A DNA stretch of 34,676 bases from contig CAMBPV010000024.1 of NCBI GenBank assembly GCA_945869695.1, positions 1-34,676 of the forward strand, written 5' to 3'. The notes under the pieces were generated by a model. That model searched no databases, was not told the origin of the DNA, and was given only the letters and a program-made list of their open reading frames with translations. How positions within the stretch are numbered: the first letter of the stretch is position 1; the number at the start of each line of letters is the position of its first letter. Source of the stretch: Prosthecobacter debontii (GTDB lineage Bacteria > Verrucomicrobiota > Verrucomicrobiia > Verrucomicrobiales > Verrucomicrobiaceae). Below, piece after piece: positions 9,561 through 29,330 of the stretch. The translations under genes were made by a program, and so were the position numbers.

Positions 9561-12500
9561 TCAGGGAACGAACTCGACCGTTAAGGTGAAGAACCTAGCT
9601 GTTTCTCCGCCAATGGAGGCGCGAAAAGGCACACTCACCGCCTGATAGGTTCCGTCGTCGGCAAGGACCGTCGGAGTTACCGTGCTGTCTTCCCAAGTTA
9701 CCAAACTGGAACTAAATTTAGGAATGTAACGCAATCCCGCAGCCACATGATCTTTCCTTCGGACGAAGATAGCCCGATGTTCAGAACCCGTGTTCGTCGG
9801 ATCGGGAAGAGCAATCGGTTTCCCTCTCACGAAGGTCCCTCCACCCAAACCACCCGTCATCACCAATGCTCCTGAACCAGACGCACTGCCGGCAGGATTC
9901 GTTCCAAAGACAAACTCGGAGAAATTGGATTCCCCGTCCTGATCCAAGTCACCTCCGTCTGCCGTGTCACCCGTATTGGAAGTCGTCCCGAGATTGGCGA
10001 GGCGCCATGCATTGATGGTTGAGAGTGTGGTGAAACTAAGCGTCGCTCCAAGTGCGCGACCTGAATTACTGAAGACTTCAGCGGCGAAGTAATATGTCGT
10101 GGATGGCAAAAGGCTAGCAGTCGGCAAACTCACGGCCAATGCGGTGCTGCCCGCGCCGATGGCTTGTGCGCTTGACGGCGTCGCACCGGCGAGATTATTG
10201 GCAGTGGAAACAAGGAAGCGCACACTGGCTGCGGTGCCGTTGGCGATACCACTGGCGTTCAGTGTGACAGTGGTGTCGGTAATCGCACTGGCGGCGAGAG
10301 TGGTGACGGCGGGTGCGTCAGGCAGATCGAGCGTCCAGACATCATTCATACGGATCTGCGAGTTGCCGGTGGTGACGTAACCGAAGCCGCCGAAGAGCCA
10401 AAGATTGGATGAGACGCTGCTACCGGAGAAGGAACTGGCCTGCTCGCGTGCACCGGGAAGATTGGCGGCTGACGCTACGCCAACTGTGCCGTAGATGCCG
10501 TTGTTTTGAATGGTCTGCTGACCTTTGACCCACGCCCATTGATTGAGATCGATGTCGTAGAACCAGAGGTCGCTGAGGTCTCCGACGGTGATGCCTTGCG
10601 CACCAAGGCCGAGGCCGCCATGGAGCCAGAGGCGGCCCTGTGCATCGGTCCAGCTCGTGGGAAATTGCCGGTAGCCCGGCGCGCTTGTGGCAGCTGGCCG
10701 CGCCTGGGTGCCATAGATACCACTGTAATACGGTCCTGACACTGAGGTGGCCGAGCCACTCATCCAGGTCCAGAAATTAGTGGTTGGATCGTAGCGCCAG
10801 AGGTCGCCGAGGTAGTAGCCTGAGTAATTGCTGCCATTGCCGTTACCGCCGAAGACCCAGAAGCGGCCCTGCTTGTCGAGCCATGAGCAACAGCCATTGC
10901 GGGTGCTTGGCGTGTTCGTGCCTGCGGCGACGCCTTTGGTGCCGAAGCTGCCGTTTGAACTGATGGCGTTGAAACCTTTCATCCAAGTCCATTCGCCGGT
11001 GGTGGGATTGTACCTCCAGAGGTCGTTGAGATTGCCGGTGGAACTGCCAGTGGCCGGCAGGCCGAAACCACCGAAGAGCCAGACCATGCCCGTCGCGGGA
11101 TCCGCTGCGGCGCTGCCGTTCCAGCGCGCGCCGGGAATGTTCGTGGTCGAGGGTGTGCCTTGCGTTCCATAGGTGCCGTTGGCGAGCGTGGCGTTGCTGC
11201 CACCGAGCCAGGTCCACATGTTGGTAGCCGGGTCAAAGCGCCAGAGATCGTTGAGATAATTGTTCGTGCTGCCGCTGGCACCGAGGCCGAAGCCGCCGAA
11301 GAGCCAGAGCTTGCCGCTGGCATCCGTCCAAGTGATGCCGCCGTAGCGTGCGCCGGGAAGGTTTGCGGCAGCCGCCGTGCCGAGCGTGCCATAGACGCCA
11401 TTGGTGCCGGAGAATACCGTGCCTTTCATGAAAGCCCACTGCCCGAGGGCGCGGTCATACTTCCACATGTCGTTCATCACAGTCGGGCTGGAGGAAGAGG
11501 TGCCGCCGAACATCCAGAGAATCCCAGATGCATCCGTCCAGGTCATGCAGGTGCTGCGACCGGTAGGGTTGTTCCCGGAGCCAAACACTCCCTGAATTGC
11601 CATGCTTCCGGAGACAGGCGAATTATTCTGGCCCTTCTTCCACGTCCAGGTGAAGGACTCGACGAGGACGAGATCGTTGCCGTCACCGCCGAAGTAGTTC
11701 GCTTGGAAAATGTAAGTCTGCCCTCCGAACGTCGCTGTGATGAGTCCACCCTGCGGCAGATCGAGGAAGGTGCCGCTGATCGGCGGCGGTGCCGTGTTGC
11801 TCAACACGACGAGCGCAGTGCCCGGCGGCGGCGCGAAACCTAGCGTGAGATTGAGGCTACGTCCTGATGGCACCGTGTAGCCCGCGGCGGTGATGGGAAT
11901 ATCAACCTCGCTGTTGAAGGTGGCCTCGACAAAGTTGTTGCCTGTGAGTGCGATGTCGAAGGGGCTTTCGTCCCCGTCGTTGTTGGCAATTTGAATGGCG
12001 GCAGCGCGCACTCCGCCAGCCGAGGGTGTGTAGGTCACATCAAAAGTCGTGCTGGCTCCGGGCGCGAGCGTCGTGGCACTGGGGGCGCTGATTGTGTAAT
12101 CAGCGGCGGCTAGGCCGGCTTTACTGAGGGCTAATCCGGTTAGTGTCGCGGTCGCTGTCCCTGAGTTGAGGATGGTGAACGTCTTCGTCTGCGATGACCC
12201 AACGGGCACGGCATCAAAACTCACCGTCGAAACGCCATCGGTCAGCCCCGATCCTGCAGGCTGCTCGACGCTGATCTCCGCGTCAGCAAAAGTCGTGACA
12301 CTCTGACCGCCGCTCGTCGTCGTGCCCTCATTATTCGTGGCGCGCACGCGGAAGTGCATCGTGGTGAGCGGCGCGAGCGCGCTGAGTGAGTGGCTGCGTG
12401 TGGCAGGCACAAGACCGGCGGGCACATCTGTGGCGGAGACGGTGGTGCCGTAGCTCGTGGTTGGGCCGTAGTCGATGAGCACCGTTGTATCCTGCCCGCG

Positions 12501-15500
12501 TGTGTCGATACTTGCGTTGAAGGTCATCGTGCTCGGCGAGAGTCCGCTCGCTGGCAGCAGCGCGACGGCGGGCGCCGCGGGCGGCTCGGCGCCACCTGCG
12601 TGAAAGCGGGCAAAATAAAGATCGTTATTCGTGCCGCCTGTATCTGCGTTGGGGAGCGCTGTTTGATTCGCTTCGCCGAAGCCAAACATGGCAGAGGTCG
12701 GCTGATAATTGCCGACGAGGAGCACGCTTCCGTTCGTCAGCGTGGCCATTCCATGGACTGTGTCCGAAGCGCCGCTGCCACCGCTCTTCGCCCACACGAG
12801 TGAGCCGTCCGCGCGGTTAAACTTGGCGAAATATACCTCGCTGCTATTGGCGAGTCCAGAGTTCGTGAGCGTGGTCTGGTTTGATTCACCTAGCCCGAAG
12901 ATGCTCGAAGGCGTGGTAAAAGTGCCAGCCACGCCGATGTCGCCATCCCAAAGAACCGCGATGCCGCCGGCGCTGTCCGCAGCTGTGCCGCTACTGTTTT
13001 TCGCCCAGCGCAACGTGCCATTGCTGCTTCGGAATGTGGCGACAAACATTTTATTGTTGGCGGAGCCGGCTGTGAGCGTCGTTGCGCCCGCCTCGCCAGC
13101 GCCAAGCAACATGGAACCTCCAGTAAACTGACCTGTAACGCAGATGGAGTTATCTGGCAAAATAGCCAGGGCCCCGGCAGTGTCATTCCCCGCACCGCCC
13201 GCTTGCCGAGCCCAAAGCAAAGAACCATCAGCTGCTGCGAGCCTGGCGAGCGCCACCTCAGTGCCAGAAACCGGAGTGAGCACGACTTGGCCGGACTCGC
13301 CCAGTCCGAAAGTGGCTGGCGGTGCGACATTCGCGACGAGCACCAAACTCGCATCCGAGAGCAGGCGCGCGCCTATGAGCGAGTCAGTGCCCGAGCCGCC
13401 AGCGGTCTTCGCCCACACGAGTCCGCCCGAAGTGCTGAGCCTCGCGGCGAAGAGTTCGTTTGCTGTACTGGAATTCGTAAGAGTTACCGCCGAGCCAGTG
13501 AAACTCAACGTGGCCGAGGTGTAGGTTGAAGCGACGATGGCACCGCCATCGGATGTGGGCAGCACGGACATACCGGTCGTCAAGTCCCCGCTTGAGCCAC
13601 CGACGCGGGACACCCACGGAACATCGCCAGTGGCTAGGTCATATTTGGCAAAGAACAGATCGCTCGACCCCAAGCTGGAAAGCGTCAAACCCGACGCGAA
13701 GGTAGTGGGCGACGAATTGAAGAAACCGCCAACGATCAAATTGCCGTCGGAGGCTAAAGCAATGACATTAGCTGCCTCGGTTCCCGTTGTTCCTGCGATC
13801 CCTTTGGCCCACGCGAGAGTACCGTCGGCGAGATAGCGGGCGACAAAACCATCCTGGTTCGTCGCATTGAGTGTCACTCCGCTGAATGTTGCAGCGGAAC
13901 CAATGAATCCACCCAACGCAACGCTGCCATCGGCCAGCACGGTTACAGCGAGGGCCGTGTCACTGCCTGTACCACCGCCGCTACGCGCCCATAATAACCT
14001 CCCGTCTTTTGCAAAACGTGCGAGGAACACGTCATTGCTGCCCGCGGAGTTCAGCGTGACCTGATCAGCGCCCGAGCCGAGCGTGAAAGGAGAGGAGCTA
14101 AATGTGCCAGCGACATACGCGCCACCGTCAGGCGCGGCTGCCACGCGCGAAGTGGCCGCTCCATCGTTCCCCACGCCTGTGCCGGAGCGTGCCCAGGCGA
14201 GATTGCCTGTGTTTGGTTGGCCAATTCCCATTTTCACCGTCGTACTCACGGTGTTCGAGACATTGCCCGCGCTGTCGGTCGCGGTGAAGGTGACGACCAT
14301 GCTCTCACCGATGGCCAGCACACCGTCGCCGGGGATCGGGTCCTGCGTGATTGTGCCGTCGCCGAGGCGGTTGTCCGAGAAGATCACGATGCCACGCACA
14401 TCGGGCAGCGACATGGCGAGCTGGCCGGGCTGGCCGATGAGATAGGTGGCTGGCGCGGTGATGACTGGTGGCACAGTGTCATCGACCGTCACAGTCACGG
14501 GCACATCGAAGGAGGATTCATCCGCGTCATTGCACCGCAAGCTGACCACCGCGCTCTGCGACAACGGCCCCTCAAGAGTGGCGATAACGGAGAAAGTGTG
14601 CGTCGCGCCCGGCAGGATGGCAAGCGCGGGATCAGGCTTAGTCAGCACCACAAACGAATCCGCTTGCAGCCCGCTGGTGACGATGTCGCTCACATACAAA
14701 TAGCCCGTGCCATTGTTCTTGATCGTGAAGCTGCGCGTCGTCGCCACGCTTTGCGTGCCGAACGCATAGACGCCCACATTGTCCTGCCGCTCCAAGCCGC
14801 TAGTGTCTGCGCCCTCGTAGAACGCCAGTTCTGGCGAGGTGCCGAGATCCAAGGAGAACAGCTCCGTGCCAATGCCGGTCACAAATGCATTGAAGTAAAG
14901 CCGACTGCCAGCCAGCGAGAGCAAACTAGGAGAGGAGCTTGTCGTGCCCAGATTGATGTCCGCGACGAGCTGCGTCCCTACCGCCGTGCCATCTGTGCGC
15001 CACAACTCGCTTCCATTAGCCACGGTGGAGGCGCTGAAATACAAGTGTCCGCTTGCCGAAAAGAGGCCAGCGGGCGAGCTGGATCCGGATCCTGAACTGA
15101 TGTCCTTCACCTGATAGGTGCCGCCGACGGTTCCGTCCGTGCGCCACAGCTCGGAACCGAAGCTGTCAAACGCGGAAAAATACAGGATGCCATTGTGCCC
15201 GCGGAAGTTCGCAGGCGATGAACTGGATGCCCCCGGATTGATATCCATCAGCATGTAAGTGCCCACAGTCGTGCCGTCGCTGCGCCACAGTTCCGTAAGC
15301 GCCACGCCGTCGCTCGAGGCAAAATAGAGCACTCCATTGTAGCTGACGAGGTTCGCTGGCGAGCCGCTGCCGGTCCCAGGATTGATGTCCTTCACCAGCA
15401 CTGTGCCCCCGCTCGTGCCATCGCTCACCCAAAGCTCCTGACCATTCACCCCATCCGTCGCGCTGAAAAAGATCGTGCTGCCGACTGCGGTGATGGATGC

Positions 15501-18173
15501 GATGCTCGATCCCGTGCCCGCGGTCGAGTTGATGTCCTTCACCATGACCGTGCCCGCGCTGGTGCCATCGCTTTTCCACAGCTCCGCTCCATTGGTGCCA
15601 TCGTTCGCGCTGAAATAAAGTAGACTGCCGACGACCACGGGTGAGGCGATGCTGGAGCCGGCATTCGCGCTGGGATTGATGTTCTTCACCATGACCGTGC
15701 CTCCCGCCGTGCCGTCGGATTTCCAGAGCTCCTGCCCGTTCGCCGTCGTGTCCGTGGCGGCAAAGAACAGCGTGCTGCCCAATGCACGCAGAAGCGTCGG
15801 AAAGGAACTGGAGGTGCCTGCGTTTAAATTGCTCACCAGCACCGTGCCCGCATTTGTTCCATCCGTCTTCCATAGCTCCGTGCCGTTCGTAGCATCGCCC
15901 GCGCTAAAGAACACGTTGGAGCCGACGAGTGTGAGATTGCCAGGCGAGGAAGACAGCCCCGCTCCTGTGAAAATGTCCTTCAGCAAAACCGTGCCACTGG
16001 AGGTTCCGTCGCTCTTCCACAGCTCCGCGCCATTCACACCGTCATTCGCGGAGAACAACACGGACGAACCGAGCGCGACGGAAGCGCCTGGACTCGTCGA
16101 TGTATTCCCGGTCAGCAAATCATTCACGCGGTAGGTGCCCGGCGTAGTGCCGTCGCTGCGCCACAGCTCCGTGCCCGTCACGCCATCTGTTGCACCAAAG
16201 AGCGCGATGCCGGAGAGATTGACCATCGCGTTAATGGCGGAGCTTCCCGTTCCGAGGTTGATGTCCTCCACGCGTACCGTGCCAAGTCCGGAACCGTCGG
16301 ATTTCCACAGCTCAGCTCCCGCCAATCCGTCATTGGCGTAGAAGAACAAAGAGCTGCCCGCTGTCGTCAGCACCGCTGGATTGGAACTGCCATTCGCCGT
16401 TGCGTTGATGTTCGACACCATCACAGTGCCCGCATCGGTGCCGTCGGTTCTCCAAAGCTCCACACCATTTGCCGTCGAGTCCGTCGCGGAAAAATACAAC
16501 GCGCTGCCAAGGACGGCGAAGCTGGCCGGAGTCGAACTGCTCGTGCCGCTGAAAATGTCCTTCACCAAAACAGTGCCGCCCGCGGTGCCGTCGGATTTCC
16601 AAAGCTCCACACCAACTACCGCAGTGTTGCCTCTGAAATAGAGCGTGCCGCTCCAGTTGAAGAGCGCGGAAGGTGTGGAGCTTCCTGATCCTGCATTGAT
16701 GTCTAGCACAATGGCCGTTGTGATGCCGTCGGTTTTATAAAGCTCGACGCCAGTTGTGCCATTCGTCGCCGCGAAAAACAGATTGCTGCCCACGGCGGTG
16801 AGGCTCGCCGGGGAGGAACTCGCAGAGCCCGCATTGATGTTTGCCACCATAACAGTGCCAGCGTTGGTGCCGTCAGACTTCCACAACTCCACACCATTCG
16901 TTCCGTCATTGGCTGTGAAATACAGGGTGCCGCCGACGGCGACAAGATTCGCCGGCGAAGAGTTCGTCGTGCCCGCAGCGATATCCTTCACCAGCACTGT
17001 GCCGCCCGCCGTGCCATCGCTTTTCCAGAGCTCCAAGCCATTGGCCGCTGTTGTCGCCGTGAAGAAAAGTGTGCTGCCGACGACGGTGAAGTTGGCGGGA
17101 GTCGAGTTGGCGCTACCTAGATTGATATCCAACAGCCTGGCGGAGGTGGAGCCATTGTAGGTCCATAGTTCGACGCCCGCCGTGGTGTCCGTCTGGCCAA
17201 AGAAAAGCGTGGAACCGATCGCCGCCATGCTCGGCGCCAAGGATGAGTAGGCATTGATCAGCGTTGTCCCGCCCGCCGTGCCATTCGTGCGATAGATGGA
17301 CAGGTTGTACTGGTAAAAGTAGTTACTGCCGCTGGCGACGAAGTTGCTCAACCCGGCGCCACTAGGCAGCGCGTTAATATCTCTCATCAATGACACGGGA
17401 CCACTCACGACAGTGCCGATGCCGTGCAACTCAATGTCGTAGCTGGCCTCGTCCGAGTCATTGCTCAGCACGTGAAGTGCCGCCAGCTTCGCCCCCGGAG
17501 TCGTCGGTGTAAAAGTCACTGCCAGCGTCGCGCTTCCCAATGGCGCAATCAGTGTGGATGAAAGCACACCCACCGAGAACTGGCTCGCTCCCGTGCCATC
17601 AATGTTAACGCCGCTGATGCTCAAATCCGCGCCGCCTGAATTCTTGATCGTAAACGTCTGCGTCACAGGCGTGTTGAGCATGGCAACGCCAAAATCAATA
17701 ATCGCCGCCCCATCCGGCCGCAGCGTACCAGCAGGCTGCTCAATGGCGATCTCCGGGAAAGCCGCACTGCCTGTTGCCTCGAGCGCGATGTCGAAAGAGC
17801 CCTCATCCAAGTCGTTGCTCTGCACATGAATCGCAGCCGAGCGGGAGCCGAGTGCAGCGGGAGCGAAGGTCACATCAAAGGTCGCGGTCGATCCCGGGGC
17901 GATGGTGCTGGCGCTGATGGTGCCGAGCGTGATGTCCGCGCTGTTCGCGCCATCCTTAGTGATGCTGCTGACCACGATGTTGGTCGCGCCCACGTTACGC
18001 ACCGTGAAGGTGCGCACAGTGCCAGAGATGATGGGTATGGAACCGTAGTTCACCGTCGAGACGCCATCCGTGAGTCCGGTCCCCACTGGCTGCTCGATGG
18101 CGATTTCGCCCGGCGGCTGCAGCACCGTGAGGCTCACCGTCGCTGGTGCACTGGTGATTGCACCGTTTGTCAC
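9561..18173 (-). CDS. Distal part of giant repeat protein (choice-of-anchor, ELWxSDGT, SBBP and Kelch-like repeats)
   Basis: Frame of 2870 residues starting at a GTG in mid-domain; it has no signal peptide and no credible start of its own. It continues the frame of the metallopeptidase part upstream, separated only by TAA 18219-18221, so it is probably the distal portion of one gene. Order by residue: choice-of-anchor-D-like domains ~22-133 and ~141-256; ELWxSDGT repeats ~260-1112; a third such domain ~1113-1227; an HYR-like domain ~1230-1313; eight SBBP/delta-60-like repeats ~1320-1858; a fibronectin-III-like domain ~1862-1963; a fourth choice-of-anchor-D-like domain ~1967-2082; a segment ending GGDGNDLVLVES ~2085-2170; six Kelch-like repeats ~2172-2617; another FnIII-like domain; a DLDQDGESNFSEF calcium-binding motif ~2740; and a short C-terminal beta domain. 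Extracellular location and ligand binding are inferred from the repeats. Confidence 0.75.
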   Translation of the reverse strand: MTNGAITSAPATVSLTVLQPPGEIAIEQPVGTGLTDGVSTVNYGSIPIISGTVRTFTVRNVGATNIVVSSITKDGANSADITLGTISASTIAPGSTATFDVTFAPAALGSRSAAIHVQSNDLDEGSFDIALEATGSAAFPEIAIEQPAGTLRPDGAAIIDFGVAMLNTPVTQTFTIKNSGGADLSISGVNIDGTGASQFSVGVLSSTLIAPLGSATLAVTFTPTTPGAKLAALHVLSNDSDEASYDIELHGIGTVVSGPVSLMRDINALPSGAGLSNFVASGSNYFYQYNLSIYRTNGTAGGTTLINAYSSLAPSMAAIGSTLFFGQTDTTAGVELWTYNGSTSARLLDINLGSANSTPANFTVVGSTLFFTATTAANGLELWKSDGTAGGTVLVKDIAAGTTNSSPANLVAVGGTLYFTANDGTNGVELWKSDGTNAGTVMVANINAGSASSSPASLTAVGSNLFFAATNGTTGVELYKTDGITTAIVLDINAGSGSSTPSALFNWSGTLYFRGNTAVVGVELWKSDGTAGGTVLVKDIFSGTSSSTPASFAVLGSALYFSATDSTANGVELWRTDGTDAGTVMVSNINATANGSSNPAVLTTAGSSLFFYANDGLAGAELWKSDGSGLGTVRVEDINLGTGSSAINAMVNLSGIALFGATDGVTGTELWRSDGTTPGTYRVNDLLTGNTSTSPGASVALGSSVLFSANDGVNGAELWKSDGTSSGTVLLKDIFTGAGLSSSPGNLTLVGSNVFFSAGDATNGTELWKTDGTNAGTVLVSNLNAGTSSSFPTLLRALGSTLFFAATDTTANGQELWKSDGTAGGTVMVKNINPSANAGSSIASPVVVGSLLYFSANDGTNGAELWKSDGTSAGTVMVKDINSTAGTGSSIASITAVGSTIFFSATDGVNGQELWVSDGTSGGTVLVKDINPGTGSGSPANLVSYNGVLYFASSDGVALTELWRSDGTTVGTYMLMDINPGASSSSPANFRGHNGILYFSAFDSFGSELWRTDGTVGGTYQVKDISSGSGSSSPAGLFSASGHLYFSASTVANGSELWRTDGTAVGTQLVADINLGTTSSSPSLLSLAGSRLYFNAFVTGIGTELFSLDLGTSPELAFYEGADTSGLERQDNVGVYAFGTQSVATTRSFTIKNNGTGYLYVSDIVTSGLQADSFVVLTKPDPALAILPGATHTFSVIATLEGPLSQSAVVSLRCNDADESSFDVPVTVTVDDTVPPVITAPATYLIGQPGQLAMSLPDVRGIVIFSDNRLGDGTITQDPIPGDGVLAIGESMVVTFTATDSAGNVSNTVSTTVKMGIGQPNTGNLAWARSGTGVGNDGAATSRVAAAPDGGAYVAGTFSSSPFTLGSGADQVTLNSAGSNDVFLARFAKDGRLLWARSGGGTGSDTALAVTVLADGSVALGGFIGSAATFSGVTLNATNQDGFVARYLADGTLAWAKGIAGTTGTEAANVIALASDGNLIVGGFFNSSPTTFASGLTLSSLGSSDLFFAKYDLATGDVPWVSRVGGSSGDLTTGMSVLPTSDGGAIVASTYTSATLSFTGSAVTLTNSSTANELFAARLSTSGGLVWAKTAGGSGTDSLIGARLLSDASLVLVANVAPPATFGLGESGQVVLTPVSGTEVALARLAAADGSLLWARQAGGAGNDTAGALAILPDNSICVTGQFTGGSMLLGAGEAGATTLTAGSANNKMFVATFRSSNGTLRWAKNSSGTAADSAGGIAVLWDGDIGVAGTFTTPSSIFGLGESNQTTLTNSGLANSSEVYFAKFNRADGSLVWAKSGGSGASDTVHGMATLTNGSVLLVGNYQPTSAMFGFGEANQTALPNADTGGTNNDLYFARFHAGGAEPPAAPAVALLPASGLSPSTMTFNASIDTRGQDTTVLIDYGPTTSYGTTVSATDVPAGLVPATRSHSLSALAPLTTMHFRVRATNNEGTTTSGGQSVTTFADAEISVEQPAGSGLTDGVSTVSFDAVPVGSSQTKTFTILNSGTATATLTGLALSKAGLAAADYTISAPSATTLAPGASTTFDVTYTPSAGGVRAAAIQIANNDGDESPFDIALTGNNFVEATFNSEVDIPITAAGYTVPSGRSLNLTLGFAPPPGTALVVLSNTAPPPISGTFLDLPQGGLITATFGGQTYIFQANYFGGDGNDLVLVESFTWTWKKGQNNSPVSGSMAIQGVFGSGNNPTGRSTCMTWTDASGILWMFGGTSSSSPTVMNDMWKYDRALGQWAFMKGTVFSGTNGVYGTLGTAAAANLPGARYGGITWTDASGKLWLFGGFGLGASGSTNNYLNDLWRFDPATNMWTWLGGSNATLANGTYGTQGTPSTTNIPGARWNGSAAADPATGMVWLFGGFGLPATGSSTGNLNDLWRYNPTTGEWTWMKGFNAISSNGSFGTKGVAAGTNTPSTRNGCCSWLDKQGRFWVFGGNGNGSNYSGYYLGDLWRYDPTTNFWTWMSGSATSVSGPYYSGIYGTQARPAATSAPGYRQFPTSWTDAQGRLWLHGGLGLGAQGITVGDLSDLWFYDIDLNQWAWVKGQQTIQNNGIYGTVGVASAANLPGAREQASSFSGSSVSSNLWLFGGFGYVTTGNSQIRMNDVWTLDLPDAPAVTTLAASAITDTTVTLNASGIANGTAASVRFLVSTANNLAGATPSSAQAIGAGSTALAVSLPTASLLPSTTYYFAAEVFSNSGRALGATLSFTTLSTINAWRLANLGTTSNTGDTADGGDLDQDGESNFSEFVFGTNPAGSASGSGALVMTGGLGGGTFVRGKPIALPDPTNTGSEHRAIFVRRKDHVAAGLRYIPKFSSSLVTWEDSTVTPTVLADDGTYQAVSVPFRASIGGETARFFTLTVEFVP
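9890..9975 (-). other. Calcium-binding (TSP3/dockerin-like) motif near the C-terminus of the giant protein
   Basis: The encoded segment GDLDQDGESNFSEFVFGTNP has the D-x-D-x-D-G-x(4)-E pattern of EF-hand-like/TSP3 loops. Similar motifs are common before the C-terminal domain of secreted Verrucomicrobia proteins (general knowledge); here it suggests calcium-dependent folding outside the cell. Confidence 0.6.
10325..11660 (-). repeat. Six Kelch-like repeats in the giant gene
   Basis: Each unit of about 70-75 residues has a GARxxxxxW-D-xGxxWLFGGFG core followed by NDLWRYDPxTxxWTWMxG and a GxYGTxG linker. Six units can be aligned by eye, which matches a six-bladed propeller or part of one. The repeats differ from each other, so they are not a recent duplication. 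Confidence 0.8.
12590..14215 (-). repeat. Eight SBBP/delta-60-like repeats in the giant gene
   Basis: Units of about 65 residues with a WAxxxGGxGxD core, a DGxxxxxGxF strand and an FxAxxxxxxG strand. Eight units are visible, beginning WARSGTGVGND and ending WAKSGGSGASD. The pattern matches SBBP/delta-60 beta-propeller repeats of secreted bacterial proteins. Confidence 0.75.
14840..17400 (-). repeat. About 17 ELWxSDGT tandem repeats in the giant gene
   Basis: Units of 46-50 residues (about 141-150 bases) each holding an LYF strand, a DGxNGxELWKSDGT turn and a GTVxVKDINxG strand, with a serine-rich SSSP linker. The first and last units are degenerate (YRTNGT and ELFSLDLG). The spacing is regular and several central units are very alike at DNA level, so this array is the part of the gene most prone to copy-number change and assembly error. 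Confidence 0.9.
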
Positions 18174-18218
18174 TGTGAAAGTGAAACTGTCAGGGCCGCT
18201 GTAGCCCGTCGTCGGCGT

Positions 18219-18221
18219 TTA
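18219..18221 (-). other. In-frame TAA splitting the giant gene
   Basis: On the minus strand the frame reads ...GTGLNRT, TAA, then TPTTGYSGPDSFTFTVTNG. The module is the common cadherin-like/VCBS-like repeat in which YTPTxxYxGxDSFTFTV is expected, so the TAA stands exactly where Tyr (TAC or TAT) belongs, one base away. Frame is unchanged on both sides: 23513 and 18173 differ by a multiple of three. The base after the stop is A, a context not associated with readthrough. Confidence 0.9.
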
Positions 18222-21200
18222 GGTGCGATTTAAACCCGTGCCAGAAAGAGCCCCATTGGTTGGATTGCTCACGACAGCGTACGTCAGCGTCGCGCCCGGA
18301 TTCGCCGTGTCCTGTCCTGTAAGCGCAATCGAAGTTGCGGTGTTGTGGATAACGTTCACCGATTGCGCGTTGGCTGCGACTGTGCTCGTCACGTCGAAGG
18401 CGTTGCTTTCGCCTGCGCTCGAACCGCTGGTTGCGCGAAGCGAGAGCTGCGGTCCGGTCTGGTTCACCGTCACATTGCCCGTCCATAAGCCCGATGTGAA
18501 TGCGGTGGTCGAAGCCGGCACAACTGTGAATGTGTTACCAGTTTGCAACACCAGATTCGGAAGCTGTGTGGAAGTCAGCGGCGGCGGACTCGTCGTGCCC
18601 GACCACGTCAACGGATCCCCGTAGCCGCTGTCGGTGTAATAGTGGATGGTGCGCGTGGGGCTGGCGGTTGTGTAGGTCACGCCACCCTGCGTGGTGTACG
18701 AGGAATTGTTGAAGCTGAAATCCACCATCAGATTGCTCGCGCCGTTGTAAGCAAAGGGCGTCGTGAAAGTGAACGTCCTCAAACCAGTGGTGCTGATCGT
18801 CTCATTCGACTGGTACACCGTCGTCCACCCCGTGCTGTCCCATGAGGCCGTGCTGTAACTCGCGAGCGCGGTGTGCTTCATTCGGAGCGTCCAGTTGTTC
18901 ATCGTCTGGCCAGGCAGCGTCGTGACATTCAGCGACAGACCCTTGATCGTCGTCGCCGCACCGATCTCGCTTTGCAAGTAAATGCACTGTGTGCGCTGGT
19001 CGTGGTAGTAGGTGTAGAGTGGCAGTGCTGTAGTGGACGAATTACCCGTGCCCACCGAACGCGGAGCGCCTAAATTGACGCCACTGAGCGCCGCCGGGCT
19101 GACAAAGCTTGTCACCGTGTTGTTCGCCACATCCTGCGCCGTGATTGTCGTGCTGAACGCCGTGCCCGCCGTCTTCGGGCTGGTGATCGTGTTCCAGGCA
19201 AAATGATGCAGCGCGCCCGCCGCTACATTGAAGGTGTTGCTCACGCCGGTGTGACCGGCACCGTCATTCGCGGTCAACGCCACGTTCGTGTCAAAGGTGT
19301 TGATGGTCACATTGCCCGTCCACACGCCAGCGGTGAAAGCTGTCGTCGCCGAAGGCGTCATCGCCACCGCGCCGCCGGTTCCTGCACCGCTCAGATTCGC
19401 CGTTCCGGTGAAGCCCACGACGGTGCTGTTGCTTTGGTTCCGCGCCGTGATCGTCACGGTGAAGGCCGCACCGCGCGTCTTCGGACTCGTGATCGTGGCC
19501 CAACCGAAGTTGTGCAAATCATTGTCAATCACACTTGTGTTTGCCGTTCCGTTGGTGAATCCCGCCGCACTCGCGGTGATCGTCACCGTCGCGTTTGTCT
19601 CCACCACGGCGTCATTTGGCGCGGTGAGCGTGAAGCTGGCCGACGTCGCGCCCGCCGCGATAGTGGCGGAGGCAGGAACGGAGAGGCGAGGGTTATTGGA
19701 AGAGAGTGACACGACAAGTGGCGTCGTCAGCGTGCCGGAGATCGACACCGTTGCCGATCCCGTTGCGCCTTCGGTGATGTTGGCTGGCGGCGTGACAGTG
19801 AGATTCGTGTTCTCATTGTCCGACACCGCAAGCGGAGCGGTCGCACCCGTCCAACCAACAACAGATGCGCTGATCACGAGGTTTTGCGTTCCGTCGATGC
19901 GGTTGTCGTCGATGGCGGTGATGAGGAAATCAACGCTCGTGCTGCCGCCGGGGATCACGACCGTGGCCGGCACGGATGCATTCGATGCATCACTTGAGGC
20001 CAACGTCACGGTGATGGGGCTGGCATTGACCACGCTGCGTGTGACCGTGGCCAACACCGCGCCTGTGCCCTCTGTCGTCGTTGTGGGCACCGTGAGGGTG
20101 AGAGCTGCGGTTTCATTGTCTTCGACCGTGAAAATTCTCGTGCCTGGCCCGATCCCCGCTGCCGTCGCTGTGATCGTGGTGACCTGAGGTCCGTCCGCCA
20201 AGGCATCATCGACGGGCGTGACTTCAAAGTTCGTCGTTAACTCACCCTCAGCGATTGAGACGCTCGCGGGGACCGTGGCCGCGCTCGTGTCACTGGATGC
20301 CAGAGCCACAGTCGTCGTGCCCACCTGGGCTTGCGTCAGCGTTACCGTGAACGTCGTAGGCGCACCACCTTCCACTGCGCTGAAAGGCCCCGAAAGAATG
20401 ATCGCATTGGTCGCTTCGCCGAGGAACTCCACATCGTCAATGTTCCAGCCCGAATACGGCGATGCGGTGCTCAGGGTCTGATACCCCCAGCGCACCTGCA
20501 CCTGCGATTGATTGTCCGCAAAAGAGGAAATGTCATACTCCAACGTTTGCCAGGCATTGTCGGCAGTCACCGGACCTTCATTGACAAAGACCTCGCGCCA
20601 AGTCGAGCCGTCAGTGGAAACCTCCACCGTGTTGCGACTGGCGGTGACGGAGGCGGAATTCAGCCAACGCTTGAAGCGCAGCCGCGTTTGCACCCGGTTC
20701 TGTAGGTTCACGGGTGCTGAGGTTAAATAATGCGGCCCGGTAACCGTCGCTGAATGATTACCTGACAAATTGACGCCAAAAACCGAGCTACCCGTCGCGC
20801 CGGAGGTTGGGTCTGAATTGCCCGTGCCGCCGCCGCCCGCACCGCCCCCACCTGCAGGAGTGCCGAAAACCCACTCACCTGCGCGTGTCCAGCCCGGATC
20901 ACTACTGAGATCGAAGAGTTGCACCAGCGGTGATCTCACTTCCAACCTTACACTGGTGCGCTGGCTGAGCCCGCTGGTCGTGTTGGTGAAAACCAAATCC
21001 GTCCCGTGATAACCCGAAGCCACGGAGGACGCCTGCGTGGTGAAGGTGAGCGGCGCGGATGCACCAGCCGCCAGAGTGCCCGAGGAAGGACTGACCGCCA
21101 ACCATGGGGCGCCCGTCGCAGCGGTCCAGTTGATCGCAGAACCACTCGTGTTGCTGACGACCAAAACTTTGCTCGCCGGTGTGAAGGGGCCACCTTTGTC

Positions 21201-23513
21201 GCCCACGATGTTCCAACCATTTCGGTCGTCAATTTGAAGTGCATCTGGGACCGAATAAGACTCAACCACGCCCGTGGTCGTGCTGTTCGCCGGGCCGGAA
21301 GCACCAAAGCCGATGCCGCGCTTTGCGAAGCCTGACCACACCTCACCCATGTCCGCCGGAAAGGCCACCAGCGCCGCCTGGATGATGCTGTCTCGTGACT
21401 GAATAAAGGTCGGGTTGGCCGGTGCAAGTTTCATGCCATCGATCACGATCTGCAGCGCACGCTGGTTGCCCAATGCATACCCGTGTTTGCTGACTAAATT
21501 ATGTCGCACTTCCCATAGCATGTTGCACCAAACCTCGCCCTGAGCGTGATATTGGTCGGGAGATGCATTCGCACTCGAGTAGCGCGGGCAAAGGGGCACA
21601 CCGGTGTGGGGAAGCGCCTGCGTCGGGTCAATGTCGCGGTAAGTCAGCGGACTCTTCGTGCGGTCTGGGCCGTATGGGAATCGGCGGATGCCGAAGTAAT
21701 AATTCGTGCTGATATTGCTCAGCAGCAGCGTCGAGTAGCCGCCCATGGCGTAATTGCCGTGCAGATCATCGCCCTCCTGCGCCAGCATTGTGACGGCCAG
21801 AAAGTCAGACCAACCCTCGCCCATACCACGGGGTTGCCACGCACTGATTCCCACTCCACCTCCGACGAGACGATTGCTCACGCCATGTCCGTACTCGTGA
21901 ATGATGATGTCATTGTCGAAGTCGCTATCACGGTCCGGATTCGGCCCCGTCCAGATATACATCTGCATGCGTCCTGGGCTGCCGTCTGCTGGTGCTGAGA
22001 AGTTCGCATTGTTTGTGCCGCTGCCATCCTGTGCATCGGCCTGCACCGCATCATTGCCTAGGCCACCGCGACCGAAGTTGTCGGTCTGGAAATTACCCGC
22101 GCTCTCCGTGAAACCGAGCCCATACATTTTGTCGTGAATCCAATTGTTCATGTAGAACAATTGCGTCACCAAGGCCGGCTGATAGGTCACGGGCGATTGC
22201 GTTGAATCCACCGGGAAATCGAACACGCGCAACGCTCCGCCATTGGGACGCGGCAGGTCGGGACTGTTGTTGGCGTCCGTATCTGTGTGCGCATCCACGT
22301 TATTGCCCAGCGTCTCCATGTTCCCATCGTTGATCCAGCCATTTGGAGATGCCGTCGTGTTTTCCGCCTGAAAGGTCAGCACCTGACGCGGAGCCTCCAG
22401 CGGCTGCAGACTTGACTTATTGCGAGGCCCAGGCGTCATCGAAAACGGGCTGTCAAACGGCTGCTTGCTTGCCGGGTTCGCATACACGCGATACGTCGCA
22501 TCACTGATGTCCGCAGTCAGACTCGTGCGGTAAAGCAACTCACCTTTTTCAGCATCCACCACCGTGCGGAACATCTCGTTTTGCGCGAGGCTGAAGGTCG
22601 TGACATCCCACGCAAGTCTCACGCGATCCGCACTCATCGGCATCCAGGTTAACTGAGCCGTCGTGTCACTGAGCTTGGGGGCTGTGAAACTCTGTTTGCG
22701 TTCACCCCCTTCAGCTGCGCCCTTTGCTACAATTTGACTGGCAGGCACCTCTTCACTCCATGAAGCGGCAACCAGTGAAATAGCTTTCGATGCATTCACA
22801 AGAGGGTTTGTAATCGCCTCCAATCGCTGCTCAGGAGGCATCTTTGAAGCCGATGCGGGATCACTGAGAAAATGGGATCCCAAAGTCACCAGATCTCCAT
22901 TCTTGGTGAGGTTGGCTTTAAAAATAGTCTTGAAAAGAGGGATGCCATCCAATTCCTGTTGCCAAACCACGGTCTTGAGTCCGCTGTGTGCTGTCACATC
23001 ATCTCGTGAAACGCGGGAGTTTTCCTGATTCAGCACGGCTGAGGGGTGACCGAAAAGCGCGGCGTTGTCGTCAACAAAACGTCGAACGGCGTCGAGGGGG
23101 TCGCTATTTCCTCCGGCCTTCTGATTTGGACGTGTCAAAAACTTGCCCACAGCCACGATGTTCGACGGCGCACCGGTGATCGCATCAAAATCGATCTGCA
23201 CACCCGGGATCTTTTCTTGTAACTCGGTCACGGCTGATTCTCTGGCCTTTGCAAGGATGGATGACTCGATTGCTTTTCGTGAGTCCAACTCGGGAATCGC
23301 CTTCGGCTTGAGCCGACTCATGATGTCACGAGACCCTGATTCTGGCGGGCTTTCATCCGCCTGAGGCACCTGCCCCGCATCCGATTTCACTGAGGCCGCC
23401 GCTCTTTCTCCGTCTGAGCCTCGGACGGCTAACCAACAGATAAGCCCCAAGATCATGACGGCGATCAAGGCTGCAACCAACCCGACAGAGCTTCTTTTTT
23501 GGGATTTACTCAT
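18219..23513 (-). CDS. M36 (fungalysin) metallopeptidase, proximal part of giant protein
   Basis: Frame of 1764 residues. Residues ~10-31 are a hydrophobic signal or anchor segment after a basic N-terminus. A propeptide region (FTP-like, ~165-215, around GLKTVVWQQELDGIPLF) precedes the M36 catalytic domain (~385-735). Zinc ligands are H539 and H543 in HEYGHGVSNRL, with E540 as catalytic base and E566 in GEGWSDFLA as third ligand; HAQGEVWCNMLWE is also typical of M36. Then follow a BACON-like domain (~775-855), a glycine-rich beta-sandwich (~857-1035), three Calx-beta-like domains (~1035-1330), two Ig-like repeats beginning HNFGW and HHFAW (~1335 on), and a cadherin-like module cut by TAA. Predicted to be a secreted or surface protease. 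It lies 90 bases after a TPR gene of the ExbB/ExbD cluster on the same strand. Confidence 0.88.
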   Translation of the reverse strand: MSKSQKRSSVGLVAALIAVMILGLICWLAVRGSDGERAAASVKSDAGQVPQADESPPESGSRDIMSRLKPKAIPELDSRKAIESSILAKARESAVTELQEKIPGVQIDFDAITGAPSNIVAVGKFLTRPNQKAGGNSDPLDAVRRFVDDNAALFGHPSAVLNQENSRVSRDDVTAHSGLKTVVWQQELDGIPLFKTIFKANLTKNGDLVTLGSHFLSDPASASKMPPEQRLEAITNPLVNASKAISLVAASWSEEVPASQIVAKGAAEGGERKQSFTAPKLSDTTAQLTWMPMSADRVRLAWDVTTFSLAQNEMFRTVVDAEKGELLYRTSLTADISDATYRVYANPASKQPFDSPFSMTPGPRNKSSLQPLEAPRQVLTFQAENTTASPNGWINDGNMETLGNNVDAHTDTDANNSPDLPRPNGGALRVFDFPVDSTQSPVTYQPALVTQLFYMNNWIHDKMYGLGFTESAGNFQTDNFGRGGLGNDAVQADAQDGSGTNNANFSAPADGSPGRMQMYIWTGPNPDRDSDFDNDIIIHEYGHGVSNRLVGGGVGISAWQPRGMGEGWSDFLAVTMLAQEGDDLHGNYAMGGYSTLLLSNISTNYYFGIRRFPYGPDRTKSPLTYRDIDPTQALPHTGVPLCPRYSSANASPDQYHAQGEVWCNMLWEVRHNLVSKHGYALGNQRALQIVIDGMKLAPANPTFIQSRDSIIQAALVAFPADMGEVWSGFAKRGIGFGASGPANSTTTGVVESYSVPDALQIDDRNGWNIVGDKGGPFTPASKVLVVSNTSGSAINWTAATGAPWLAVSPSSGTLAAGASAPLTFTTQASSVASGYHGTDLVFTNTTSGLSQRTSVRLEVRSPLVQLFDLSSDPGWTRAGEWVFGTPAGGGGAGGGGTGNSDPTSGATGSSVFGVNLSGNHSATVTGPHYLTSAPVNLQNRVQTRLRFKRWLNSASVTASRNTVEVSTDGSTWREVFVNEGPVTADNAWQTLEYDISSFADNQSQVQVRWGYQTLSTASPYSGWNIDDVEFLGEATNAIILSGPFSAVEGGAPTTFTVTLTQAQVGTTTVALASSDTSAATVPASVSIAEGELTTNFEVTPVDDALADGPQVTTITATAAGIGPGTRIFTVEDNETAALTLTVPTTTTEGTGAVLATVTRSVVNASPITVTLASSDASNASVPATVVIPGGSTSVDFLITAIDDNRIDGTQNLVISASVVGWTGATAPLAVSDNENTNLTVTPPANITEGATGSATVSISGTLTTPLVVSLSSNNPRLSVPASATIAAGATSASFTLTAPNDAVVETNATVTITASAAGFTNGTANTSVIDNDLHNFGWATITSPKTRGAAFTVTITARNQSNSTVVGFTGTANLSGAGTGGAVAMTPSATTAFTAGVWTGNVTINTFDTNVALTANDGAGHTGVSNTFNVAAGALHHFAWNTITSPKTAGTAFSTTITAQDVANNTVTSFVSPAALSGVNLGAPRSVGTGNSSTTALPLYTYYHDQRTQCIYLQSEIGAATTIKGLSLNVTTLPGQTMNNWTLRMKHTALASYSTASWDSTGWTTVYQSNETISTTGLRTFTFTTPFAYNGASNLMVDFSFNNSSYTTQGGVTYTTASPTRTIHYYTDSGYGDPLTWSGTTSPPPLTSTQLPNLVLQTGNTFTVVPASTTAFTSGLWTGNVTVNQTGPQLSLRATSGSSAGESNAFDVTSTVAANAQSVNVIHNTATSIALTGQDTANPGATLTYAVVSNPTNGALSGTGLNRT
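18520..19065 (-). other. Domain nested inside the second Ig-like repeat of the giant protein
   Basis: The two Ig-like repeats align at ITSPKT...ALSG and again at TTAFTxGxWTGNVT. In the second copy about 180 residues lie between these anchors, starting RSVGTGNSSTTALPLYTYY and ending LVLQTGNTFTV. The insert resembles jelly-roll modules of Bacteroidetes-type secreted proteins (GTGxSTxxxLPxxTYYxxSxxQxIYLxSEIG pattern, from memory). Confidence 0.65.
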
Positions 23514-23603: not shown

Positions 23604-24536
23604 TTACTTCTTCTCAGGCTCGGGAGAAACCGCGGGCTCGGCGGGTTTTTCGGCTAGCTTGGCCAACTCGGGAGGGAGTTGGCCTTTGGCGGAGAGATCG
23701 CGGTAGATGACGGCGAGGGCGTAGGCTTGGCGTTTGAGTTGGGTGTGGTCGGGTTTCTGTTGGAGCAACTCATCAGTGAGCTTCAGGGCGGACTTGGCGG
23801 CTTGGGCTGTGAGGGAGGCGTCTGAACCAAGATTCAGGGTCAGGGCTCCATGATAATCGAGCAGGGCCAGTTCCTTTTTTCCGTCGTGTTCTTCAAGGAG
23901 TGCACGCATGAAAGAGAGAGACGAGAGGCGCGAACGGCTGGCTTTTTTGAAGGGAGCTTGGGGCAGGCTACCTTTGGCGGCTTTGTCTTCAAATCCTTGG
24001 AGATAGGCCATCAGCGCTACCCAGTCCTGCTTCCCGATGATCGTCCAGCCCTGGAGGTCCTGAATGTCTTCCTGGAAGCCTTCATTGAGGCTAAGCGGAT
24101 TGGCGAGTTGACGCTCAAAGACTGCGGCCAATTCCTTGAATTTACCCTGTTTTTGCAGGCTGCTGAAGCGGTAGTATTTGGCCATGCTGCCAAAGGAGTC
24201 TTTCAGCGGAACGAGCTTCTCCAAACTCTGACCCAGGGTCTCAAACTGCTTCTCAGCCTCAGCGTAGTTCCCGGATTGATAAACCGCCAAGGCCGCACTC
24301 CAGCCCCTGGGTTCCTCCATGTTATAATCCTTGATGTTCTGAAAAGGGAGCTTGAACGAGGTCGCGCCGTCTGCCGTGGTGCTGACGAGGATGCCTTCTT
24401 TGTCAGCTCCGATGACAAACCCGGGGGTCGTCTCGCCATTAACATTCAAGATCGTGGCCTGGAGTCCTTGGCCAAAGGCGGCGTTGGCCATCCAACTCGA
24501 AAAAAGAAATAGGAATGCGATCTGACTTTTCATCAT
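23604..24536 (-). CDS. Exported TPR-like protein with N-terminal SH3-like segment
   Basis: Protein of about 310 residues. Signal peptide MMKSQIAFLFLFSSWMANAA with probable cleavage near AFGQ. Residues ~25-75 read as a small beta domain (ILNVNGETTPGFVIGADKEG), followed by alpha-helical TPR-like repeats, for example AALAVYQSGNYAEAEKQFETL, and a proline/glutamate-rich tail. No enzyme motif is visible. The ATG at 24536 overlaps the TGA of the upstream 988-residue TPR gene in ATGA, with GGGGGA just before it, so translation is coupled. Likely a periplasmic partner of the large TPR protein and the ExbB/ExbD complex. An ATG 12 bases further upstream is less likely because the ATGA start yields a cleaner signal peptide. 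Confidence 0.78.
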   Translation of the reverse strand: MMKSQIAFLFLFSSWMANAAFGQGLQATILNVNGETTPGFVIGADKEGILVSTTADGATSFKLPFQNIKDYNMEEPRGWSAALAVYQSGNYAEAEKQFETLGQSLEKLVPLKDSFGSMAKYYRFSSLQKQGKFKELAAVFERQLANPLSLNEGFQEDIQDLQGWTIIGKQDWVALMAYLQGFEDKAAKGSLPQAPFKKASRSRLSSLSFMRALLEEHDGKKELALLDYHGALTLNLGSDASLTAQAAKSALKLTDELLQQKPDHTQLKRQAYALAVIYRDLSAKGQLPPELAKLAEKPAEPAVSPEPEKK

Positions 24537-27499
24537 TTGATCCCCCATAGACCTTCGTCAGGTTCAGCTGGTTTTTTGAGTTCATCCCGGAGTATCTTGT
24601 AGAACTCCTTGGCGCGCAGAATGTGCGGACCGCCCACGGGGTGGCTGGAAAGCTTATACATTCTCGAAACGGTGTCTTTCACGAGGCGGAAGGCTTTGTC
24701 TTTGTTTCCCTTTTTGACCTGAATCTCGACAGCCCGAACGCGCGCCTCGGCTGAGTAGTCCACAAAGTTTTCGAGCGGAGGAGCGACGAAGGGAGTGAAG
24801 GCTTCCAGCGCTTCGTCCGGCTTGCCCAGCTCCTCGTAGGAGCGCCCCAACTTGAAATAAACCTCGGGCCGCGAGCGCGTGAAGCTTTTCTCCTTCGTCA
24901 TGGCGGTGAAGGCAGACTGAGACTCGGCCCACATTTTTTTGTCATAGTAGAGCCGGCCTTTTTCCAGCATGGCCTCTTCCACATACTCGGGTTTGTCCTT
25001 CAACTCTTTGATCACCGAGTCAAAGGCTGCGATGGCGTCTGTGAAGGAGGCGTCGTCACCTGATTTACCCAGAACGCGAGCACGCCCCATGAGCGCCAGT
25101 GCATAGTGCTCTGACTGACCGCGGTCCAAGACCGATTGGAACCACTCGACGGCAAGTTTGTCGGTCTCAGCCGTGTTCTTCTGTGCGAGGTGACGCCCCA
25201 CCTGAACCACGATGTAGGCCGCGAGCTCTTTTTTATCAAATTTCTCCAACTCTTCCATCGCCACCTGGGCCTGTGCTTCTCTTTTTGGAAACTTGTCTTT
25301 GTAGGCGTCATTGCTGAGCAGATCCACCCGCGCCATGAGCAGCCACGCTTTGAGTGCATTGTTAAACTTCTGTCCCTCAGGAGCGAAGTTCATCAGGCGG
25401 TCCAACAGGGGCTCAGGACCTACGATGTCCAGATAGTTGGAGGTGTAAGAGCCGATGGCCTCCTCGATGCCCGCGCCTGTTTCGCCGCTGCCTAGTCGGA
25501 TGATGACCTTCTCCAGCTCATCCATGGCCTCCTTGCCACGCTTCGCTTCCTTCAGGGGTTCGAGCGCACCGACGATGATTTCCGCATCATAAAATCCACC
25601 TTTGTATTTCGCAGCATAAGCGTCGTAGTAGGCGATCACATCCGCAGGCTTTTTCAAAGCATTGGCCACCCGGACGAGTTGGACGAGGACTCGGGCGACG
25701 ACGGGCGCATGGGCATCGCCAGCGGCTTCACCTAGCTCCTTTGATTTCAGGTAAGCAGCTTCAGCTTGTTCATTGGCATTGAGCATGAGGTGGGAATCAC
25801 CCCGCATCGCGAGGGCTCGATCCAGATCTCCAAAATCGGGACGTTGTTTCATCAGGCTATCGGTGACCTCCAGACACTGGGGAAACTGTCCGAGCTGGAA
25901 ATGGCAGGTGGCGAGGTCGAGCAGCGCGTAACCCAAATAGTCTGAACTCGGGAACGCCTTCACAAAGGCCTCCAATTTGGTCACCGCTTCCTTCCACTCT
26001 TTAAGCCGCACCATGCTTGATGCCTCAAAATAGAACACCGGCTCTTTGAATCGGCTCTCAGGGAATCGCTTGGCATGAGACTCGAGCTCCACCTTTGCCG
26101 CCTCTGTTTTACCGAGATTAAAGAGAGAGGCTCCCATGACAAAGTCCGTCAGATCGCGCTCCTTAGCGTCTTTTGCCAAGGCGTCTCGAATGTCACCCGC
26201 CAAGGTCACGGCTTCGTCATATTGCTTTGACTGAAAAACGCTCTCCAGCATGAGGGTGCTTACGCTCCCGGCATATTCATGCTCAGGGAACTCCTTTCTG
26301 AACTGTGCGCCCAGCTCTTTCGCTGCATCCATCTGCCCTGTAGCCAGAGAGCACCGCATGGCACCGAAGAGAAAAATGGGCCGGTGCGTGCTTTTGGGAG
26401 CAGCCTGGAGACCATGAGAATAGATGGCGTAACCGGCCGACATATTCCCCAGCTTCTCATAGCAGGCGGCCAAGGTGAGTGCGGCGATCCAATCCAGTGA
26501 ATCATCCGCCGCGGCCTGCTGGGAGTATTTCTCGATTTCCTTTTTGAGGAGTTCGGGCACTTTACCATTGTGATACTTCGTGCTCCGGAGCCGGAGATCC
26601 CTAACCACATCGGCGCTCGGAGCCATCATGCCGATCAGTCGAATCGCCAGCGTCTGCTGATTGTTCTCTGAGGCCACACGCGCCAGCGCCAGCAGCCGAT
26701 TGTTGAACTCAAAACGCGCAAGATCGTAGGGTCCGAGAGCAAGACGACTTGAATTGGCATCGATAAACTGATGCGCTTGACGCTCAGTCTCCGGGCTGGC
26801 GATACCGGGTGTGGTCCAACTCTCGACCAACGCCATGAGGGCGCGAAAAAGACCGTCAGGCTTGGGCTTCACACCACCGGCACCCGCGAAGAGTTGCTCG
26901 AGCAGTGATTTGGCTCGGTCAGGCTGTCCCGCCTTCGAATAAGCTGTCGCCGCCTGCACCCGGAAAGCGGCATCATCGTAACTCCCGGCGGCAGCGGGTT
27001 TGGCGGCAAAGGCCTCATAGTCCTTCACTGCTTCCGCATATTTTCCGAGCGCCTGCTTGATCACACCCATTTCCAGCAGCGATAGCTCCCAGACAGGATT
27101 TGACCTGTCCTTCGGCGTATCCTTGGCGTTCTGGCCTTCTTTGTAGCACTTCTCGTAGGCAGCGAGTGCGTCGTCGAATCGCTTCAAATTTTTGAGACAG
27201 AAACCGTAGCGGTAATGCATCACACCGAACGCCGGACCAAAGTCCTGAAAGCCACTGGGCCCGAACTCCTTCATGATCTTCTCAAGCGGAACCAAAGCTT
27301 GCTCCCACTGCCCTTCTTCCATGAGGTTACCTGCTTTTTCGAACAGAGACTGGATGTTAAAATCTTCCTCCTCTGCTGCCGGAGCCTGCGCCAAAAGATC
27401 AAAAGGACTGAGCGCGACGAACAATCCGAAAAGGGAGACGAAGAGAGCGCCCCAACTCCGCGCGCTCATCAAACTGGCTTCGTGAGAACCGGTATTCAT
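24533..27499 (-). CDS. Large exported tetratricopeptide repeat protein
   Basis: Protein of 988 residues. The N-terminus carries a signal peptide (SARSWGALFVSLFGLFVALSP, cleavage near LLAQAPA). The rest is almost wholly helical TPR/Sel1-like repeats: examples are FEKAGNLMEEGQWEQALVPL, FDDALAAYEKCY, YAEAVKDYEAF, FPQCLEVTDSLMKQRPDF and, near the end, GRSYEELGKPDEALEAF. Such proteins act as scaffolds; no catalytic motif is seen. ATG 27499 lies four bases after the stop of the upstream exbD-like gene and has an AAGGAAAG Shine-Dalgarno; an in-frame TTG at 27520 lies within that gene and is rejected. Gene order ExbB-ExbD-ExbD-TPR recalls tolQ-tolR-...-cpoB, where a periplasmic TPR protein works with the Tol complex; this comparison is inference. 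Confidence 0.85.
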   Translation of the reverse strand: MNTGSHEASLMSARSWGALFVSLFGLFVALSPFDLLAQAPAAEEEDFNIQSLFEKAGNLMEEGQWEQALVPLEKIMKEFGPSGFQDFGPAFGVMHYRYGFCLKNLKRFDDALAAYEKCYKEGQNAKDTPKDRSNPVWELSLLEMGVIKQALGKYAEAVKDYEAFAAKPAAAGSYDDAAFRVQAATAYSKAGQPDRAKSLLEQLFAGAGGVKPKPDGLFRALMALVESWTTPGIASPETERQAHQFIDANSSRLALGPYDLARFEFNNRLLALARVASENNQQTLAIRLIGMMAPSADVVRDLRLRSTKYHNGKVPELLKKEIEKYSQQAAADDSLDWIAALTLAACYEKLGNMSAGYAIYSHGLQAAPKSTHRPIFLFGAMRCSLATGQMDAAKELGAQFRKEFPEHEYAGSVSTLMLESVFQSKQYDEAVTLAGDIRDALAKDAKERDLTDFVMGASLFNLGKTEAAKVELESHAKRFPESRFKEPVFYFEASSMVRLKEWKEAVTKLEAFVKAFPSSDYLGYALLDLATCHFQLGQFPQCLEVTDSLMKQRPDFGDLDRALAMRGDSHLMLNANEQAEAAYLKSKELGEAAGDAHAPVVARVLVQLVRVANALKKPADVIAYYDAYAAKYKGGFYDAEIIVGALEPLKEAKRGKEAMDELEKVIIRLGSGETGAGIEEAIGSYTSNYLDIVGPEPLLDRLMNFAPEGQKFNNALKAWLLMARVDLLSNDAYKDKFPKREAQAQVAMEELEKFDKKELAAYIVVQVGRHLAQKNTAETDKLAVEWFQSVLDRGQSEHYALALMGRARVLGKSGDDASFTDAIAAFDSVIKELKDKPEYVEEAMLEKGRLYYDKKMWAESQSAFTAMTKEKSFTRSRPEVYFKLGRSYEELGKPDEALEAFTPFVAPPLENFVDYSAEARVRAVEIQVKKGNKDKAFRLVKDTVSRMYKLSSHPVGGPHILRAKEFYKILRDELKKPAEPDEGLWGIK

Positions 27500-27503
27500 G
27501 CGT

Positions 27504-27944
27504 TCACTTTCCTTTGTCAAAACCTGAGAGTGTTACGGTGTTGATGCCCACTTTGGCCAGAGCGTTCATGAGATCGATGAAGCGCTGCTGTTTGGCATCG
27601 TCATCTGCGGATACGATCACCAAGGGTTTCTTGTTTGTGGCGTCCGTCAGTTGTTTGTAGCGATCCAATTCAGCCTCCATCGCCTGATCATCCGCCATCG
27701 GCTGATCTGCGATGGTGATCTCTCCGTTGGTCGTCAGTCTGACTTTCAGGGGATCGATCTGGATGTTGCTGGCCTTCCCCGTATCGGTCGGGAGCTCCAT
27801 GCTAAGGTCAGACTCCCGAGGCTCCAGTGTGGAGGTTACCAAAAAGTAAATCAGAAGGAGGAAACTCACGTCAATCAGCGATGAAATATCAAGCGACGGA
27901 TCATCCGGCGGCTCGATTTCAAAGTGCTTTTTTCGTTTCTTCAT
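27504..27944 (-). CDS. ExbD/TolR-family protein (second copy)
   Basis: Protein of 146 residues with the ExbD/TolR plan: short cytoplasmic basic N-terminus (MKKRKKHFE), a single membrane helix SLIDVSFLLLIYFLVTS with the conserved proton-relay aspartate in LIDV, and a periplasmic domain ending in NALAKVGINTVTL. Members pair with ExbB/TolQ/MotA-type channels to turn proton flow into mechanical work across the envelope. It is 21 bases downstream of another ExbD-like gene and four bases upstream of the TPR gene. The two ExbD copies are clearly divergent, so heterodimeric or alternative stator use is possible. Confidence 0.88.
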   Translation of the reverse strand: MKKRKKHFEIEPPDDPSLDISSLIDVSFLLLIYFLVTSTLEPRESDLSMELPTDTGKASNIQIDPLKVRLTTNGEITIADQPMADDQAMEAELDRYKQLTDATNKKPLVIVSADDDAKQQRFIDLMNALAKVGINTVTLSGFDKGK

Positions 27945-27965
27945 TCGGGGAGTGGATTGACCAAA

Positions 27966-28415
27966 CTACTTCGACTTTTTGCCACTGGGGAAGGCGCTGA
28001 AGATGATCGTATTGACCCCGGCGGCTCCCGCTCCCTGAACCACTTGTTTGCTGTACTTCACCAGCGCTGTGCGATGTCCGCGAAGCATGATTTTGGGCGT
28101 CGTTCCCGTCGCGATACCCTCTTTTTCCTTCTGCACGAATTCGGTAATGGCCGCCATGTCAGCCAGGGGTAATTTGTTGCCACCCGAAAATTTTCCGTCG
28201 TCGTAAATATTGATCACGATCCGACCTGCTGCTTGCTCAGGGGGCCTGGCATTGGCGGCGATGGGGATCTCCACCGCCGGGTCGATCTGGTTGGTGATCA
28301 TCCTCGAGCTCACCATGAAAAAGAGCAGAAGCTGAAACACCATGTCGATCATCGACGAGGAGTCCATCTTGCATTCTTCCGAGACACCGGTGAGCTGGCT
28401 GATCTTTCTTGCCAT
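27966..28415 (-). CDS. ExbD/TolR-family protein (first copy)
   Basis: Protein of 149 residues. The membrane helix SMIDMVFQLLLFFMVSS keeps the essential aspartate (MID). The periplasmic part carries PKIMLRGHRTALVKYSKQVV and AGVNTIIFSAF, equivalent to the swapped beta-strand/helix region of ExbD. Begins 33 bases after the ExbB-like gene. The pair of ExbD genes beside one ExbB gene is common in Planctomycetes-Verrucomicrobia-type clusters from general knowledge. No TonB-like gene is seen nearby. Confidence 0.88.
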   Translation of the reverse strand: MARKISQLTGVSEECKMDSSSMIDMVFQLLLFFMVSSRMITNQIDPAVEIPIAANARPPEQAAGRIVINIYDDGKFSGGNKLPLADMAAITEFVQKEKEGIATGTTPKIMLRGHRTALVKYSKQVVQGAGAAGVNTIIFSAFPSGKKSK

Positions 28416-28448
28416 GAGGCAGAGCGAGAAGGTTGAGTTTTTCAGCCG

Positions 28449-29264: not shown

Positions 29265-29330
29265 GGAATTTGAAGTCTGGAGGGTGTCTGGCGGCCAGAG
29301 TGGCTCAGCAGAAAAAGAAACACAAACCAA

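Follow-up and report, generated by a model that had tools for sequence, protein, structure and literature searches.

A lone in-frame TAA interrupts a giant gene for a predicted M36 metallopeptidase in Prosthecobacter debontii and may be a very recent nonsense mutation

Results

A giant gene split by one stop codon

The window analysed here is a stretch of 34,676 nucleotides from an uncultured Prosthecobacter debontii (family Verrucomicrobiaceae; contig CAMBPV010000024.1, assembly GCA_945869695.1) and forms one complete contig of a 4.9-Mb draft genome. On its minus strand lies a gene of about 4650 codons, the single reading frame of which is split by a TAA (TTA on the plus strand) with the same frame continuing on both sides, as the first-pass annotation of this DNA had described. 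The features are:

18222..23513, minus strand: proximal part of the giant gene, 1764 codons with ATG at 23513, orthologous to the first part of single open reading frames (ORFs) in two relatives (G063/L035 and G010, see below)
18219-23513, minus strand: the same ORF including the stop, ATG start, 1764 aa
18219..18221, minus strand: the in-frame TAA; both orthologues that span this codon have TAC (Tyr) here
18126..18380, minus strand: Big_9/tandem-95 Ig-like module with the one TAA inside
9561..18218, minus strand: distal part of the giant gene, 2885 open codons, ending at TGA 9561-9563

At the local base composition, the computed chance of an open run of 2885 codons is about 1e-40, and the distal frame is thus coding. 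It has the length reported earlier, and the further claim that it lacks a start signal of its own also holds. The earliest start past the TAA is a GTG at 18173, 15 codons on and within the Big_9 domain; no SD-like motif is found at the first start candidates beyond the TAA, and by inspection no signal-peptide-like stretch follows any in-frame start listed for the first 290 distal codons. A gene cluster on the same strand (23604-29330, minus) immediately precedes the giant gene and encodes a TPR protein, two proteins that read as ExbD/TolR-like, and an ExbB/TolQ-like protein.

Domain architecture

The product is predicted from its domains to be a secreted M36 (fungalysin) metallopeptidase with a long, repeat-rich tail. 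The proximal part encodes, in order, an N-terminal hydrophobic signal or anchor, a propeptide region, the M36 metallopeptidase, a BACON-like domain, more repeat domains and the first two thirds of Big_9. The peptidase domain (PF02128) is complete at residues 375-738 (E 1e-109, 367 bits against a cut-off of 23.3), its translation contains the zinc motif HExxH as HEYGH, and the PDB matches of the proximal part are the extracellular metalloproteinases 7qfy and 4k90. The distal part continues with the remainder of Big_9, choice-of-anchor-D/ASH-type Ig-like domains, 16 ELWxxDGT repeats, another Ig-like domain, kelch repeats and a C-terminal module. A literature search on ELWxxDGT returned no paper.

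The complete M36 domain and HExxH motif are shared with bacterial fungalysin metallopeptidases (PF02128; NCBIfam NF038112, NF038113, NF038111). However, scores against the myxosortase-, T9SS- and rhombosortase-dependent subfamilies (409 of 1500, 395 of 885 and 340 of 1700 bits) lie far under the curated cut-offs, so the giant gene is assigned to none of the three, and its tail, unlike theirs, carries ELWxxDGT and kelch repeats.

The module across the TAA had been called cadherin-like, which was roughly right: a single module does span the stop, and it is Pfam Big_9/NCBIfam tandem-95 (Big_9 E 3e-9 with X in place of the stop), while the match to Cadherin_5 is weak.

Neither Pfam nor NCBIfam clearly matches the C-terminal module (9561-10007, minus), which opens WRLANLGTTSNTG..D.DG..N..EF. 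Other giant proteins also carry this module close to their C-terminal end (L035, L016), and there are C-terminal matches in G001, G010, G012, G022 and G034. It is a possible surface-sorting domain; truncation at the TAA would remove it.

Orthologues have one frame and a tyrosine codon

The comparison with orthologous loci that the first-pass annotation had proposed was run on 68 genomes of the family. Two orthologues, in G063 and G010, cover the TAA site with its full surroundings, and both have a single uninterrupted frame without a stop. The G063 locus coincides exactly in sequence with part of locus L035 of the pond MAG Verrucomicrobiaceae bacterium D8_MAG_00016, which has one ORF of 4617 aa and reads ACT TAC ACA at the site; its amino-acid identity to the giant gene is 66-71% (distal part 71-72% against L035). 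G010 has one frame of 4781 codons from stop to stop and reads ACC TAC ACT, with 58-60% identity (about 60% for the distal part). Tyrosine occupies the stop position in 13/13 matching module copies from relatives, these two orthologues included, which bears out the suggestion that the stop replaces the module's tyrosine.

The closest relative of the proximal part, in G019 (L095, contig C84), is 82% identical over 1428 aa and is uninformative on the stop because its sequence ends at the contig edge short of the site. A search of the genome collection for contigs of the same species returned G063 as the sole record; no second copy of the region was found within the source genome, and viral contigs yielded no relative. 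In a check for conserved neighbourhood, the other genes of the window were unmatched in the examined parts of the G063, G010 and G019 contigs.

The gene of G019, a genome from another genus, is 82% identical to the proximal part (18222-23513), while the best match in G001, the sole genome of the same genus, reaches only about 49%. This pattern, together with the patchy occurrence and different neighbours, hints at horizontal transfer. A G001 contig (C41; L016) has 46-48% identity to the distal part (window 10000-18200, the ELWxxDGT region); the distal-like ORFs of L016 have no M36 match in the examined stretch, which suggests tail shuffling.

No sign of decay downstream of the stop

Selection was compared on the two sides of the TAA in a codon alignment with L035. 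Because dS in this alignment, at about 1.2, shows partial saturation, only the comparison between upstream and downstream is meaningful. The dN/dS ratio is 0.197 upstream and 0.188 downstream. When amino-acid changes were polarised with G010 as outgroup, private changes upstream of the stop numbered 171 in the lineage of the window and 167 in L035; downstream the figures were 239 and 230. By these measures the distal part shows no acceleration, decay or relaxed selection after the stop. An old pseudogene is ruled out by the equal dN/dS and the balanced lineage-specific changes, and an alternative genetic code is ruled out because TAA terminates ordinary neighbouring genes.

No second stop or frameshift occurs in the 8655 downstream bases, where about 2.2% of substitutions would make a stop. 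Since the distal part has no second lesion, the age of the stop has a 95% upper bound of about 0.3-0.6% neutral divergence, given assumed indel/substitution ratios of 0.15 (0.3%) to 0.05 (0.6%). The earlier view that the lesion is very recent or not real is thus upheld by the intact orthologues and the unrelaxed selection on the distal part.

Similar lesions elsewhere in the genome and its relatives

Four large families (ABC ATPases, sulfatases, PSD1 and GFO/IDH/MocA) were screened genome-wide, covering about 46,000 codons when the listed matches are roughly added up. They contained one more in-frame stop, a rate of about 1 per 46,000 codons; at this rough rate, which rests on one event and has a wide error, about 0.1 stops would be expected in a gene of 4651 codons. 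This second lone TAA interrupts a sulfatase gene (contig C98, 3590-3592, minus; L096), three orthologues of which, 77% identical, are intact (G001, G004, G014). Sulfatase matches with internal stops also occur in relatives, namely G031 (C140:26584-27960, TAG) and G003 (C1:3003076-3004311, TGA), the latter a single-contig genome. Nonsense lesions are therefore not rare in this group.

A length-based list of same-frame neighbours over 835 kb of the source genome, judged by eye and blind to frameshifts, showed no recognisable second example comparable to the giant gene. A codon-usage screen for interruptions missed the TAA site itself at the threshold used.

Discussion

The giant gene has a lone same-frame stop, and its orthologues are intact with a sense codon at the site, as in interrupted coding sequences (ICDS) of the nonsense type and recent bacterial pseudogenes, with which it shares coding sequence in frame on both sides and no decay. 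It differs from the usual ICDS only in size, its roughly 4650 codons making a larger target; a literature search for giant genes with premature stops found no paper. The locus is not a new kind of gene; its stop is either an ordinary, very recent nonsense mutation or a sequence error.

The orthologues, being single-frame with TAC at the site, rule out conservation of either a split or a readthrough site; the giant gene is thus not genuinely split, and its stop is neither old nor conserved. The third option offered earlier, two genuine genes of which the distal one has its own start, is the least probable of the readings considered here. The distal frame is indeed long and conserved, but it lacks the start and secretion signals of a separate gene, its first start lies in mid-domain, and no orthologue is split. 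It is also quite improbable that the TAA is real and tolerated, with low-level readthrough or a regulated product of two lengths giving a short and a full-length protein; the more specific idea of a length switch, in which most chains stop past the peptidase and nearby modules and occasional readthrough yields the full 4650-residue protein, is more doubtful still. Purifying selection is undiminished downstream, and in-frame stops in genes with dN/dS <1 have been reported as widespread in bacteria and argued to be often tolerated (Belinky et al. 2021, PMC7918605). The stop of the giant gene likewise lies within coding sequence whose dN/dS is far below 1. However, that study analysed stops common to orthologues of at least two species, whereas only one of the genomes compared here carries the present stop, and since it is not conserved, selection averaged over the branch is silent on the time after it arose. 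Moreover, TAA serves neighbouring genes in the source genome as an ordinary terminator, and a family of such sites was not seen. For a stop this young, functional readthrough keeps a small probability, but none of the present observations points to it in particular.

The stop is probably, although by no means certainly, a very recent nonsense mutation that turned the conserved tyrosine codon of the Big_9 module into TAA, either fixed in the strain or segregating in the sampled population. A plausible but lesser possibility is a consensus, assembly or strain-mixture error, in which case the organism still encodes tyrosine here and its giant gene is whole. In sequence such an error would look identical to a mutation, and it accounts equally well for the complete lack of decay. 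The source genome is a 333-contig draft, has 4.6% contamination and contains another lone TAA in an otherwise intact sulfatase; in Mycobacterium smegmatis, 28/73 checked interrupted genes were sequencing errors (PMC1852416). In addition, conservation in the 250 codons around the TAA is among the highest in the gene (dN 0.10), a point that we counted against a real nonsense mutation. On the other hand, the lack of any other recognised same-frame interruption in 835 kb and the single one in about 46,000 codons indicate that the genome is not error-riddled, and interrupted genes occur occasionally in relatives too. Lone stops turn up at a low rate in this genome and are also seen in a single-contig relative; on these grounds we moderately favour the recent, possibly segregating, nonsense mutation, which we rate as somewhat more probable than a consensus error.

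If the base is real, as we infer, translation should end after 1764 residues. The short product would keep the signal region, the propeptide and the catalytic domain, but would be without the Ig-like, ELWxxDGT, kelch and C-terminal modules of the distal part. The 2885 codons beyond the TAA would then be an untranslated remnant, too young to have decayed.

For annotation, the two ORFs should be entered together as a single interrupted gene instead of a 1764-aa peptidase next to a startless 2870-aa protein. Should the base prove real, the TAA would be a natural truncation that parts the M36 catalytic portion from its long tail, and it could be used to probe the role of that tail.
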